A stretch of DNA of 39,408 nucleotides from Luteolibacter sp. (lineage in GTDB: Bacteria > Verrucomicrobiota > Verrucomicrobiia > Verrucomicrobiales > Akkermansiaceae), in NCBI GenBank assembly GCA_030828305.1, contig JAURCU010000012.1, forward strand, positions 1 to 39,408, written 5' to 3'. Positions within the stretch are counted from its first letter, which is position 1, and every line of letters begins with the position of its first letter. The notes under the pieces were generated by a model that saw only the letters and a list, made by a program, of their open reading frames with translations, was not told the DNA's origin and made no database searches. A program made the translations under genes and the position numbers. This document shows, one piece after another, positions 9,652 through 28,032 of this stretch.

Positions 9652-11601
9652 TTAGAATGACATCTTCGCGCCGAAGTAGGCGGCACGGCCGAGAGCGGGG
9701 TAGCCTTTGGCGGAGGAGTAGTTCTCATCGAGCAGGTTTTCGATGCGGCCGGTGATGGACCAAGTGTCATTGATTTTGAAGTTGGCGACCATGCGCCAGA
9801 CCATGAAGTCCTCGGCCTCCTCCTGAAGGTAGGTGGTCGGGTTGATGTCTTCGCGGTTGAGCTGAGCAATGGCTTGGACTCCTAGCAAGAGGTCCTCGTG
9901 GGGCTGCCACCAGAGGCCGGCCTGGACCAGATGGCGCGGGCGGCGGGCGAGGGGAACGTTCGAGGCGGGATCCGCCACGAAACCGCCGCTTCGGGGGTCA
10001 TTCAGGCGATCGGAAACGGCGCGTAGGTAGGTGTAGCCGAGGCCGAATTCCAGGGTGTCAGTGGCCTGGTAGTTGGCGGCGAGTTCGATGCCTTCGGTCG
10101 TGGCTTTCTCAATATTGAAGGTGTCATAGGTGGTGGGCTCGTAGCTCAGGAGATCATCGATCTTGTTGCAAAAGAGCACGAAGGAAAGATCCAGTTTGCC
10201 CTCCATGAGTGCCTGCCGGATGCCGAGTTCATAGGACAGGCTGCTCTCGGCACGGAGTGCGGTACTGGTGTCGGAATCGTAGGCCAGATCCACCGGGCTG
10301 GGCGGGGCATAGGATGTCGCCATCTTGGCGTGCAGCGAAGTGTTCTCGTTTAGCTGATGCAGTAGGATGATGTTGCCCGTAGTCTCGTTGTCGTAGTCGG
10401 AGTAGTCGTCATGGCGCAGGCCGAGGCGTAGCTCGGTCTGATCACCCAACATCCATAGCAACTGCGCGCATAGTCCGAGTTGCTGGAAGCTCTCGTTGTA
10501 AGGCACGGGCGCGGCGAGTGGACTGAAGGTGTTGATGTTGGTGTTCTGCAATTCATCGTTACGAAAGACCACGCCCAAACTAAGCAGCGAATCATGGGGC
10601 AAAGAGTAGTCGACCTGCAGGTTGAGTTCGTCGCTGAGGATCTCGATGGAGTTGCTGATGGGGTAGTTGCCCAGGTAGTTCGACATGGTGTCGAAGGCTG
10701 CGTTGACCTCGAAGATGTCCGAGTTTCTCTCAGTCCTCGAGTAAAACAAATGCACCGAGATCTCATCGCTGAGGTAACGAATGCCGGGCGAGAGCAGCCA
10801 GCTGCTGGTGTCCTGGGTGTCGAAGGGCGTGGGGCTAGAGACGAAGCCAGGAAGTGCTTTGTTGTTGTCGAAACCAGTGGCGATGAGCTCCAGAAGTAGA
10901 TTGTCGGCGAGTTGGTAGTCAAAGCGTGATGTGAGGCCGAACTGTTTGTAGCTATCGTTGGCGCGCTGGTTGTCAGTGCTCAGGTGTGTGGTCGAGAGGC
11001 TGAGGCCTAGCGCATCCGAGCCAGTCCGGTAGTCCAAGCTCGAGCGCGAGAAGTCATTGAACCCGGCTTCCGCCCCCAGGCTGCCTTCGCTGCCGCCCAG
11101 GCCAAGACCGGAACGCAAACGGCTATCGATAACGCCGCCGATGTTGCTGCTGCCATACTGTACGCTGGAGGGACCACGCTGGATTTCCACGCGGCTGGCA
11201 TTGGCGGGGCTCAGGAAGCCAAGGTCGTATTCGTTGCCGAAGCCGGGGCTGAGCCGGCGCCCATCCATGAAGAGGGAAGTGTGGTTGCTCTCGGTTCCGC
11301 GAATGGACAGAGAGCTGATGTTGCCTAGGCCGCCATATGACCACAACACCATGCCGGGCTTGCGACTGATGATGTCGATTAGTGAGTGGTGGTTGTAGCG
11401 CTCAATGTCCTCGCGCGTGATGACATCCACTGAGGCGGTGACGCGACCCATCCCGAGTGGAGTCCGGGTGCTGACCACCACGGTCGGTTCGAGTAGGGGA
11501 AGGCTTTCTGAGGCTCTTGCCGCACTCCCAACAAATGGTGTCGCCGCCAACAGGACGACGCTCCAATGGAGGCCTCTTTGAGGCTTGGGGTGTTTCTTCA
11601 T
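9652..11601 (-). CDS. TonB-dependent outer membrane receptor, BtuB-like (cobalamin)
   Basis: A 649-aa outer-membrane receptor. It has a signal peptide (about residues 1-30, ending in SAARASE), a TonB-box-like stretch EPTVVVSTRT, and a plug domain with DVITREDIERYNHHSLIDI, GLGNISSLSIRGTESNHTSLFMDG and RVEIQRGPSSVQYGSSNIGGVI. A 22-strand-type barrel follows, ending in a terminal Phe after YFGAKMS, as expected for BAM targeting. Length and plug sequence fit the BtuB group. The substrate call rests mostly on the cobalamin riboswitch directly upstream. No BtuCDF, cobalamin salvage gene or TonB is in the window. Confidence 0.9.
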   Translation of the reverse strand: MKKHPKPQRGLHWSVVLLAATPFVGSAARASESLPLLEPTVVVSTRTPLGMGRVTASVDVITREDIERYNHHSLIDIISRKPGMVLWSYGGLGNISSLSIRGTESNHTSLFMDGRRLSPGFGNEYDLGFLSPANASRVEIQRGPSSVQYGSSNIGGVIDSRLRSGLGLGGSEGSLGAEAGFNDFSRSSLDYRTGSDALGLSLSTTHLSTDNQRANDSYKQFGLTSRFDYQLADNLLLELIATGFDNNKALPGFVSSPTPFDTQDTSSWLLSPGIRYLSDEISVHLFYSRTERNSDIFEVNAAFDTMSNYLGNYPISNSIEILSDELNLQVDYSLPHDSLLSLGVVFRNDELQNTNINTFSPLAAPVPYNESFQQLGLCAQLLWMLGDQTELRLGLRHDDYSDYDNETTGNIILLHQLNENTSLHAKMATSYAPPSPVDLAYDSDTSTALRAESSLSYELGIRQALMEGKLDLSFVLFCNKIDDLLSYEPTTYDTFNIEKATTEGIELAANYQATDTLEFGLGYTYLRAVSDRLNDPRSGGFVADPASNVPLARRPRHLVQAGLWWQPHEDLLLGVQAIAQLNREDINPTTYLQEEAEDFMVWRMVANFKINDTWSITGRIENLLDENYSSAKGYPALGRAAYFGAKMSF

Positions 11602-11639: not shown

Positions 11640-11790
11640 CCTCTCCTGGCTGGCATTCTGGCTGCCCGGGGTTTTTAGGCTCAGGGGTCACAGTGGCGAT
11701 ACCGCGCTGGAATTTCACCAGCTTTCCCATCAATTTCCTGCCCTTGGTCAGGGCCTCCGAGTGAGGGCCAGCATCTCTGCCGACATCGGT
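11640..11790 (-). promoter_or_regulatory. Cobalamin (B12) riboswitch
   Basis: Read on the minus strand, the leader of the TonB receptor gene carries the conserved core in the right order. GGGAAAGCTGGTGAAATTCC (11709-11728) comes first, then a GC-rich turn and CGCCACTGT (11690-11698), and then the B12-box-like CAGCCAGAATGCCAGCC ending near 11645. GCTGG and CCAGC pair around the GGTGAAATT loop. The peripheral extension between the CACTGT core and the B12 box is short, so this is a compact variant. No U-tract terminator lies between it and the ATG, so control of translation initiation is more likely than attenuation. The ends are approximate. Confidence 0.9.
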
Positions 11791-26145: not shown

Positions 26146-26221
26146 GACCCGTTCGTCTAGCGGTCTAGGACTCCGCCCTTTCACGGCGGCAACACGGGTT
26201 CGAGTCCCGTACGGGTCGCCA
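26146..26221 (+). tRNA. tRNA-Glu (UUC)
   Basis: A 76-nt tRNA with the CCA encoded. The acceptor stem is GACCCGT with ACGGGTC (26211-26217), discriminator G26218 and CCA 26219-26221. The anticodon stem CCGCC/GGCGG (26173-26177 and 26185-26189) holds loop CTTTCAC with anticodon TTC at 26180-26182. The T loop GGGTTCGAGTCCC is standard. Its 3' end is repeated downstream at 26478. Confidence 0.97.
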
Positions 26222-26226
26222 AACCC
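26211..26226 (+). repeat. att-like direct repeat, copy 1 (tRNA-Glu 3' end)
   Basis: The 16-bp sequence ACGGGTCGCCAAACCC covers the acceptor 3' strand, CCA and the first bases of the terminator. It is repeated exactly at 26478-26493. Duplication of a tRNA 3' end is the usual mark of integration by a tyrosine recombinase. Confidence 0.7.
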
Positions 26227-26256
26227 CCTCCTAATACGAGGGGGTTTTGCTTTTTT
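26222..26256 (+). terminator. Intrinsic terminator of tRNA-Glu
   Basis: AACCCCCTC at 26222-26230 pairs with GAGGGGGTT at 26238-26246 around a 7-nt loop, followed by TTGCTTTTTT. It begins at the base after the tRNA CCA. A degenerate second copy lies at 26488-26517. Confidence 0.9.
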
Positions 26257-26477: not shown

Positions 26478-26493
26478 ACGGGTCGCCAAACCC
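26478..26493 (+). repeat. att-like direct repeat, copy 2 (tRNA 3'-end remnant)
   Basis: An exact copy of ACGGGTCGCCAAACCC, 267 bases downstream of copy 1. No anticodon arm precedes it, so this is a tRNA fragment, not a second tRNA gene. A third, more degenerate copy (AGTCCCATACGGGT followed a few bases later by AGTCGCCA) lies near 26403-26430. Confidence 0.7.
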
Positions 26494-26517
26494 TCTCAAC
26501 ACATGAGGGGGTTTTGC
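26488..26517 (+). terminator. Degenerate second copy of the tRNA-Glu terminator
   Basis: CCCTC at 26491-26495 pairs with GAGGG at 26505-26509, followed by GGTTTTGCTT. The layout and flanks match the terminator at 26222-26256, but the loop is longer and the T-tract is lost after GCTT, so it is probably weak. Confidence 0.5.
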
Positions 26518-26540
26518 TTGTACAAGAAGTGGCGAAGGGA

Positions 26541-26717
26541 GTGACATTCAGCGTAAGTGGAGTTCCTATCTCAGCGGGTTTCGTGGAGCGTGACCCGAAT
26601 GGTCATCTGATCTGTTGCGGTAGGTCAGATGGTTTGGGGCTGGAGTGTGATCCAGAAGACGCAGTGAAGCTTGGCGCATGGCTGAAATCGCTTCCCAAAC
26701 GAGACACGGAAATCTGA
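26541..26717 (+). CDS. Small ORF, function unknown
   Basis: Encodes about 58 residues from GTG 26541, with an alternative GTG at 26529. The product has FVERDPNGHLICCGRSDGLGLECDPEDAVKLGAWLKSL, a mixed polar sequence that looks protein-like rather than a shadow, and no gene lies opposite. AAGGGA sits directly before 26541, which is too close to be a normal Shine-Dalgarno for that start but suits neither start well. It is not a family I can name. It lies just after the duplicated tRNA end, inside the suspected element remnant. Confidence 0.4.
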   Translation: MTFSVSGVPISAGFVERDPNGHLICCGRSDGLGLECDPEDAVKLGAWLKSLPKRDTEI

Positions 26718-26720
26718 GCG

Positions 26721-26816
26721 ATGACAGACCAAGAAAAGTATGCAGACCTATTGCTCGAAGTGCTTTCATTGCGGGGTGAGCAACTTCCAACCAAGCCCCA
26801 GTCAGATGGGAAATAG
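26721..26816 (+). CDS. 31-residue ORF following the small ORF
   Basis: An ATG at 26721, three bases after the stop of the previous ORF, opens a 31-codon frame ending TAG at 26814-26816 (product begins MTDQEKYADLLLEVLSLRGE). The start spacing suggests translational coupling, and the first 20 residues would form an amphipathic helix. Too short to judge by composition; it could be chance. Confidence 0.3.
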   Translation: MTDQEKYADLLLEVLSLRGEQLPTKPQSDGK

Positions 26817-26926
26817 CCATTTATGACAACCCGCTTGCGCCAGCTGGCTTGCAATCTCCTGCGCAATAGGCATGATAGATCTGACATCGCGAGTGTCCGC
26901 TAGCATGGTGGACCAGCAACCGATTC

Positions 26927-27059
26927 GAGACATTAACGGTGCCCCCGGGAGAAATCCCGCATGTGCCGGTTAGGATCCAGACAGCCTGCCGGAAAAACGT
27001 CTCCCTGAAACTAGATATTTACGCCCATCCGATGTCATCGGCATGGGCGTTTTGTTTTT
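26927..27059 (+). ncRNA. Candidate structured RNA (three-way junction) with terminator
   Basis: No gene fits here, but nested complementarity is clear. P1 is GAGAC (26927-26931) with GTCTC (26999-27003). Inside it, P2 is CGGGA-GAAA-TCCCG (26946-26959), a stem capped by a GNRA tetraloop. P3 is CCGG (26966-26969) with CCGG (26989-26992), continued across a small internal loop by AGG with CCT, closing a 10-nt loop. A strong intrinsic terminator follows 17 bases after P1. The shape fits a small RNA or a riboswitch-type leader ending in a terminator. The P3 side, GATCCAGACAGCCTGCC, loosely recalls a B12 box, but the cobalamin core is missing. Confidence 0.45.
27021..27059 (+). terminator. Intrinsic terminator after the structured RNA
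   Basis: ACGCCCAT (27021-27028) pairs with ATGGGCGT (27043-27050), and CCGA/TCGG (27029-27032 and 27038-27041) extend it past a one-base bulge to a 5-nt loop. TTTGTTTTT follows. A strong terminator that needs a transcript coming from upstream on the plus strand. Confidence 0.85.
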
Positions 27060-27069
27060 CAGGAATCGC

Positions 27070-27097
27070 GATGTCGTGAACCCCAAACCACGACATC
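27070..27097. repeat. 9-bp perfect inverted repeat before the integrase fragment
   Basis: GATGTCGTG at 27070-27078 and CACGACATC at 27089-27097 around a 10-nt spacer, ending three bases before the ATG of the integrase fragment. Its place suits an operator or a ribosome-site-masking hairpin. Confidence 0.45.
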
Positions 27098-27099
27098 AA

Positions 27100-27336
27100 A
27101 TGCAACAAATACCGACATTGTCCCGCCGGCAGAAATGCGCCGGACCCAACCACAACCTGTGGAATAATCACGGAACCTGGTGGTTTCATGGAACAGAGCA
27201 CCTGCCAGACGGCACGTCTCGCCGAATCCGGGTCAGTCTCAAGACCCGTGATCAGGATCAGGCACGTTTACAACGGGATTTCATCCTCTGTCGATTCGGT
27301 CGGAAAGCCTCCAACCTCCAAAGCTGCCATGATTGA
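27100..27336 (+). pseudogene. Tyrosine integrase N-terminal fragment
   Basis: Encodes 78 residues. The part around NLWNNHGTWWFHGTEH, then LPDGTSRRIRVSLKTRDQDQ and ARLQRDFIL has the three-strand Arm-DNA-binding pattern found at the N-terminus of phage-type tyrosine integrases (WW..H...PDG..RR.R.SLKTRD...A...RD). A full integrase would continue for about 300 residues with the core-binding and RHRY catalytic domains; here the similarity stops after about 65 residues, and no frame downstream carries the rest. It may instead be a stand-alone DNA-binding protein, but with the duplicated tRNA end 0.6 kb away a relic integrase is the simpler reading. Confidence 0.55.
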
Positions 27337-27393: not shown

Positions 27394-28032
27394 ATGAAAC
27401 GTAGAAGCTTTTTATCTATTATCTCCGGAGCATTTGGTTCCTGCCTGATTTCTCCTGAAACCGCGATTCGCATCCATGAAATCGCCATGGGCAATGCAGA
27501 CCCGAGAATCCTCGCCCCACTGAATCCCAGCACCTCCCTCCTGGCAGTGGAAAGTTGTGGCCGCTACATCTTGCATCTCGGAGATCCATACGCAGAGCCT
27601 GACTACCCCTCCCTTCGTGAATTCATCGAAGGCAAGGGCTTCTATCCTGATGACGATGAATCCGCCCGGGCTTATCTGGAAGAGACCTACCTCGCCGGAG
27701 ACGAGAGTGAGCGTGAAATCCGCGCGCATTTGAAAAGCCTCCGTCTGGAGCTCGACAACCCGATTGACGGTTCTGAGCGAGACCAGTGGCTGGAATGGGA
27801 ATACACCCTGCAGGAATGTACGATGGCTGCCGCCTTTCGCTATCTGGAACTCCTGCCTCTCAAGGATGGAGGGAGCTCAGAAGGAGAAAGACTGGGTCAA
27901 GTTTCCTTCATTGAGGGCCCCCATCCCGGTTCCAACAGCACCTATGTTGAGGTCGATGGCTTGGAGGGAATTGCCAGCCTCCAGCATCGGCTCAATCAGC
28001 TGGGAGAAGGCGTCAGGATTGAGGTAGAATGA
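27394..28032 (+). CDS. Unrecognised 212-aa protein in tRNA-Glu island remnant
   Basis: I do not recognise this gene. The product starts MKRRSFLSIISGAF, which has twin-arginine-like character, but the hydrophobic stretch is short and a signal is doubtful. The body is acidic and mostly helical, with runs such as DDDESARAYLEETYLAGDESEREIR and LKSLRLELDNP, and a C-terminal strand region YVEVDGLEGIASLQHRLNQLG. No cysteine or histidine cluster suggests an enzyme. It is the only full-size ORF between the tRNA-Glu and the potassium channel gene and lies on the opposite strand to the latter. No opposing frame is as good, so I think it is real; it is probably accessory cargo. Confidence 0.55.
   Translation: MKRRSFLSIISGAFGSCLISPETAIRIHEIAMGNADPRILAPLNPSTSLLAVESCGRYILHLGDPYAEPDYPSLREFIEGKGFYPDDDESARAYLEETYLAGDESEREIRAHLKSLRLELDNPIDGSERDQWLEWEYTLQECTMAAAFRYLELLPLKDGGSSEGERLGQVSFIEGPHPGSNSTYVEVDGLEGIASLQHRLNQLGEGVRIEVE

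Follow-up and report, generated by a model that had tools for sequence, protein, structure and literature searches.

A very probable SAM-I/IV-class riboswitch leads a conserved small-protein gene in Verrucomicrobiota

A structured RNA at positions 26927-27059 of a 39,408-nt stretch of Luteolibacter DNA (the window) had been described in an initial annotation as a compact three-way junction that matched no known class, lying in a gene-free stretch and ending in an intrinsic terminator. We asked to which class this RNA belongs and which gene, if any, it serves. The comparisons described here make it very probable that the region is a SAM riboswitch of the SAM-I/IV class, forming the 5' leader of a small gene at 27100-27336 that is probably transcribed together with the 212-aa gene behind it.

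A permissive Rfam scan of 26700-27150 returned a single riboswitch match, SAM-I-IV (RF01725) at 26879-27008. This covariance search, proposed with the initial annotation, thus supplied a class, although the match covered the whole model length (1-99) at 24.4 bits and did not reach the curated cut-off of 41.1 bits. RF01725 missed the site in a search of the entire own genome because the match is sub-threshold at genome scale; the SAM-I model (RF00162) gave zero matches in this genome at E 0.01, and the nucleotide-level search for homologues that had also been proposed found nothing convincing besides the window itself. Genomes of relatives from the same family contain RF01725 matches at 41-62 bits, above the cut-off, and these relatives have the anatomy of the window. 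They are connected to it by R2, a covariance model of relatives that leaves out the window and the four sequences nearest to it. R2 matched the window at 26883-27019 with 48.7 bits (E 2.1e-12, E-values from home-made covariance models being rough) and found no second match in the 39 kb. A known class can therefore be masked by a sub-threshold Rfam match combined with the fold of a truncated sequence.

The aptamer occupies 26883-27003 on the forward strand, and its topology is P1, an unbroken P2, P3, P4, P5 and a pseudoknot that joins the P3 loop to the 3' tail. The 5' strand of P1 (26884-26887, within a switching strand of 26883-26892) pairs with 26961-26964, as placed by alignment and fold. 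P2 is a hairpin at 26895-26913 (strands 26895-26898/26910-26913), and P3 (26916-26942, GCAACCG/CGGTGC) contributes the ligand-pocket strands. P5 lies at 26966-26992 (strands 26966-26969/26989-26992). The true start is about 26883, 44 bases upstream of that first annotated, and this upstream part contains P1, P2 and the 5' half of P3; the stems first seen are the 3' half to two thirds of a longer RNA. Among these stems, the GNRA hairpin CGGGA-GAAA-TCCCG at 26946-26959 is P4, the second stem is P5, and the terminator hairpin is present at 27021-27050 with a T-run to 27059. The GAGAC/GTCTC pairing is also real (26927-26931, inside the P3 loop, with 26999-27003), but it is the pseudoknot helix PK2 and not an outer stem. 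Folding 26920-27065 by itself does draw it as an outer stem, because a nested fold cannot show pseudoknots, and this stretch is more stably folded than 200 dinucleotide shuffles (z -3.7); the three-way junction is what the truncated sequence forms as a competing fold.

Loss of pairing in homologues had been set beforehand as the refutation test for a structured RNA, and we found the pairing conserved. In an alignment of 44 leaders from relatives, 82% of cells were paired and 24 of 31 pairs showed two-sided changes. The covariation score of the 44 aptamers was 0.457; shuffling lowered it to 0.189, and sliding the partners gave no more than 0.149. All eight pairs of P2 had two-sided changes; in P3, five of eight pairs covaried and three were invariant. 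For the pseudoknot, 32 distinct P3 loops matched their own 3' tails with a mean complement of 5.56 nt, compared with 4.35 nt after permutation (0 of 2000 permutations as high), through helix variants that include GAGAC/GTCTC, GAGAT/ATCTC, GGGAGA/TCTCCC, GGAAAA/TTTTCC, TGAAG/CTTCA and CGGGAGCG/CGCTCCCG. Kinship among the sequences inflates permutation tests of this kind, yet the slid-partner control retains kinship and still separates clearly; the MAG labels of some records are unreliable. The view of the region as a riboswitch-like structured RNA ending in a terminator is borne out by this conservation of architecture and pairing.

Comparison with the published SAM riboswitch classes makes SAM-I/IV recognisable where no class had been matched before. 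SAM-I/IV RNAs have an undivided P2, P4, P5 and PK-2 and do not have PK-1, whereas in SAM-IV P2 is split into P2a/P2b, PK-1 is present and P4 is missing (PMC6890682). Weinberg et al. 2010 describe the SAM-I/IV variant as one without the P2 internal loop (PMC2864571), and the sequence of the crystallised aptamer 4L81 has the element order of the window (PMC5393176). The window has every structural feature of this class: a single-hairpin P2, P4 between P3 and P1, P5 after P1, and PK-2. With RF01725 and 4L81 it has in common P1, the unbroken P2, P3 with GCAACC/GGUGC, P4, P5 after P1 and the P3-loop/3'-tail pseudoknot, and differs in its sub-cut-off Rfam score, a C-C mismatch atop P1, a longer P5, an orphan small-protein target and a P1 5' strand that appears to switch through two complementary sites. 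SAM-IV (RF00634) resembles the window in P5 and PK-2 (PMC6890682), but the window has P4 and a single P2. The SAM-I class (RF00162) agrees in the P1-P3 core, the ligand-pocket letters and P4, but carries a P2 internal loop/kink-turn and PK-1 and has neither P5 nor PK-2, while P2 of the window is unbroken with a short loop. A cobalamin riboswitch was considered as well, as the 3' part of P5 (AGACAGCCTGCCGG) looks like a B12 box by eye; Rfam yielded no such match there.

The SAM-I-like core of the window comprises P1, a GAG joiner and a P3 of the form GCAACC...GGUG. In the SAM-I structure the ligand contacts are U7, G11, C44, A45, C47, U57, G58 and U88, and the letters matching them are retained at 26887, 26891, 26917, 26918, 26920, 26940, 26941 and 26962. 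P1 is short, with about 4 bp plus a mismatch. At its top, adjacent to the ligand pocket, a C-C (26888 and 26960) occupies the position of the SAM-I pair C8-G86; the mismatch also occurs in L048, L049, L050, L066 and L102. The ligand is most likely S-adenosylmethionine.

The stretch downstream of the RNA had been taken for gene-free apart from an integrase fragment, and the RNA for a possible leader that had lost its gene. It contains instead an intact 78-aa ORF (27100-27336, beginning MQQIPTLSRRQKCAGPNHNLWNNHGTWWFHG), which encodes a member of the small-protein family NN[HN]GTWW, and a 212-aa gene with no Pfam match (27394-28032), both on the forward strand. The small protein stands alone and is conserved, with 17 invariant residues among 50 diverse members and 338 relatives in the genome collection. 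Leader association was counted over the 80 best loci, 71 of which were testable, having at least 280 nt upstream. R2 matched upstream of the small ORF in 69 of the 71, three of these matches being weak and about half of the 69 loci having also seeded R2. In the sister branch NNRG[VI]WW, R2 matched upstream in 0 of 33 loci. The leader and its intact gene recur as a pair across Verrucomicrobiota chromosomes, and a cultured relative, Luteolibacter marinus NBU1238, has the leader too. Among the open-access papers searched, we found none joining this leader to the small protein.

Most genomes of the family have a single copy of the sister branch (members L144, L146-L157, L230-L249), which in complete genomes of one genus directly follows what reads as a ribosomal protein gene.

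At 78 aa and without a catalytic Pfam match, the small protein has no R-H-R-Y tyrosine recombinase domain. The AlphaFold model consists of three strands and one helix, with pLDDT about 90 in the core. A Foldseek search gave no confident match, which we do not count as a sign of a new fold. The best low-rmsd solved match, 3jtz (Z 4.4, rmsd 2.1, 50 residues, 20% identity), stood among unrelated structures; it is the arm-type binding domain of the HPI integrase. Weak Pfam matches to DUF6538 were found in 48 of 50 members and to Arm-DNA-bind_3 in 6 of 50. The predicted three-strand sheet plus helix resembles the arm-type domains with which tyrosine recombinases bind DNA (DUF6538, Arm-DNA-bind_3, 3jtz), but the small protein stands alone at 65-90 aa and has no catalytic domain. 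The models suggest an integrase-arm-like nucleic-acid-binding fold, and the protein probably binds nucleic acid.

Upstream of the aptamer lies a putative promoter, with a -35-like TTGCAA at 26849-26854, whose sequence and position are common to relatives, and a -10-like CATGAT at 26871-26876, 16 nt from the -35. It is preceded by a box, TTTATGACAACC (26820-26831), a 12-mer with one exact occurrence in the own genome. Boxes of this ATGACA type were present in all 75 riboswitch promoters (69 with ATGACA/TGTCAT and 6 with the variant ATGTCAC, seen in one genus) compared with 3.9% of 95-nt background windows. Where measured, the distance from box to -35 was mostly 16 nt or 26-27 nt. Because these two distances differ by one helical turn, the box looks like a candidate protein-binding site. 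We considered it as an autoregulatory site of the small protein. However, genes of the riboswitch-free sister branch (NNRG) mostly lack it (6 of 32 upstream regions have a box), so the box tracks the promoter and not the protein family. A regulon-wide site was set aside as well, there being no excess over a reversed-pattern control in nine genomes.

Downstream, the 5' strand of P1 has a complement at two sites: 18-35 nt ahead of the ATG, and within the tip of the terminator. In the window, these are an anti-P1 element near the start (TCGCGATGTC, 27066-27075), with 10 bp of complementarity to 26883-26892, and the tip CGATGTC (27030-27036) of the intrinsic terminator (27021-27059). Over 65 loci, start-proximal complementarity scored 10.28 for own pairs against 7.87 with P1 strands permuted (maximum 8.56 in 300 trials), and terminator-tip complementarity 6.30 against 5.13 (maximum 5.52 in 300 trials). 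The P1 strand variants ACATCGCGA, GCATCAGGA and GCATTCCGA track the complement variants TCGCGATGT, TCCTGATGC and TCGGGATGC. From these covarying complements, SAM is predicted to turn the gene OFF, at two levels, and the P1 5' strand apparently serves two decision points, the terminator and a start-codon hairpin.

Transcription would begin near 26880. Once SAM is bound, P1 would form (26884-26887/26961-26964), held by P3, P4, P5 and the P3-loop/3'-tail pseudoknot, and the strand 27070-27078, left free, would pair with 27089-27097 ahead of the ATG in a start-blocking hairpin (27070-27097) that is mutually exclusive with anti-P1 pairing. The terminator would form too, and the gene would be OFF. 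In the absence of SAM, 26883-26892 would pair at first with the terminator tip and later, more stably, with 27066-27075, thereby freeing the start and turning the gene ON. Folding gave these states: in the ligand-free minimum fold (-81.4 kcal/mol) 26883-26892 pairs with 27066-27075 and the start is exposed; with the aptamer enforced, the start-blocking pairing appears (-75.6, pseudoknot and ligand energies excluded); and in the RNA out only to 27040, the terminator tip is the partner of the P1 strand. The energies favour the ligand-free fold, so that switching would depend on binding and pseudoknot energy. At equilibrium, the predicted folds of both states contain the terminator, which outcompetes the antiterminator; antitermination would thus have to be kinetic, and is the weaker half of the switch because the full terminator is more stable.

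The genes behind the small ORF bear on the ligand. Among 85 downstream proteins scanned were nine SAM synthetases and four radical-SAM proteins, the radical-SAM genes occurring in a marine group. A bona fide metK overlaps the small ORF by 4 bases in L051, whose aptamer is among the closest to that of the window, and in L109. About ten loci carry a MoxR-like ATPase, then a VWA protein, then a divergent MetK, and the gene behind the RNA in L219 reads by sequence as O-acetylhomoserine sulfhydrylase (metY). The 212-aa gene of the window has homologues behind the equivalent leader in L183 (46% identity) and, similarly, in L098.

These observations allow us to weigh other explanations. The pocket could have drifted to SAH or another adenosyl compound while the RNA still controls the small gene, as might be read from the C-C that replaces C8-G86 in the clade of the window and from the divergent Rfam score. 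We consider this improbable: the remaining SAM-I contact residues are all retained, the L051 aptamer, a close relative, lies ahead of a bona fide metK, and relatives with and without the mismatch have genes and anatomy in common. That the window holds a decayed, non-functional copy is very improbable; it does belong to the lowest-scoring group of the family, with P1 down to about 4 bp plus the mismatch, but nothing is broken in its ligand-pocket letters, pseudoknot, switch elements, promoter box or ORF, and L049, L050, L051, L054 and L102 have these features as well. We give hardly any credence to a stand-alone, trans-acting small RNA of a mobile element, as the initial annotation had suggested. 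A terminator about 20 nt past the aptamer and, a few hundred nt upstream, a second copy of a tRNA-Glu 3' end would suit it, but a conserved ORF follows in nearly all relatives, the covarying start-codon elements make sense only in cis, and the leader-gene pair is chromosomal, with the protein very rare in viral sequence (4 matches in 2.9 million viral contigs).

A SAM-I/IV riboswitch acting in cis could also work with the opposite polarity, SAM turning the gene ON, or by translational control only, with the terminator acting as constitutive attenuation. The prediction of the terminator in both states points this way, as do several relatives, such as L051, without an obvious T-run terminator. 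On the other side stand the strong covariation between the P1 5' strand and the anti-P1 element near the start, from which SAM is expected to turn the gene OFF, and the metK cargo, which is consistent with repression by SAM. We therefore regard such schemes as unlikely, though worth keeping in mind, and retain SAM-dependent repression as the preferred reading.

What appears new here is a proposed SAM regulon that extends across Verrucomicrobiota and has at its centre a small protein with a predicted integrase-arm-like fold. Many copies of this phylum-wide regulon lie under or near the Rfam cut-off, and the riboswitch would offer a first way into the physiology of a strongly conserved, unstudied small protein. 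More tentatively, leader, box and small ORF may form one two-input SAM-homeostasis module of Verrucomicrobiota, in which the riboswitch would meter the small protein, an integrase-arm-derived regulator acting on DNA, and which would be placed before metK, MoxR-VWA-metK-like, radical-SAM and occasional defence cargo, all turned ON as SAM falls. We hold this possible rather than probable.

Several further arrangements were seen. The order riboswitch, small ORF, MoxR ATPase, VWA and divergent MetK was found in L052, L053, L054, L060, L066, L074, L079, L100 and L111, and looks like a conflict-system-type module using SAM. In L055, the type III-B CRISPR genes Cmr2 and Cmr3 begin about 0.65 kb past the small ORF on the same strand. 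We did not adopt a reading of the cargo as a defence island: single cases of Cmr2/Cmr3, HsdM and Fic and four weak viperin-type (radical-SAM) matches are too small a sample to weigh without matched controls. In L209, L210 and L211, riboswitches of the same type stand before another conserved small ORF (MVITPNLPQNVVNWLICRNR or MICTPNVPPAVRNWAVCERR at its beginning), and in L213, L215 and L218 before a gene reading as N-formylglutamate amidohydrolase-like. Some genomes have two copies within a few kb (L115, 448-586 and 4686-4825; also L121, 7133-7272 on the reverse strand).

Elsewhere in the window, the 3' end of a tRNA-Glu with its terminator (26211-26252) is duplicated 267 nt downstream (26478-26519, 86% identity), which is a footprint of integration or of local duplication. 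A cobalamin riboswitch just above the Rfam cut-off (11642-11724, reverse strand) precedes a TonB-dependent receptor gene (9652-11601, reverse strand), whose product is likely a B12 transporter.
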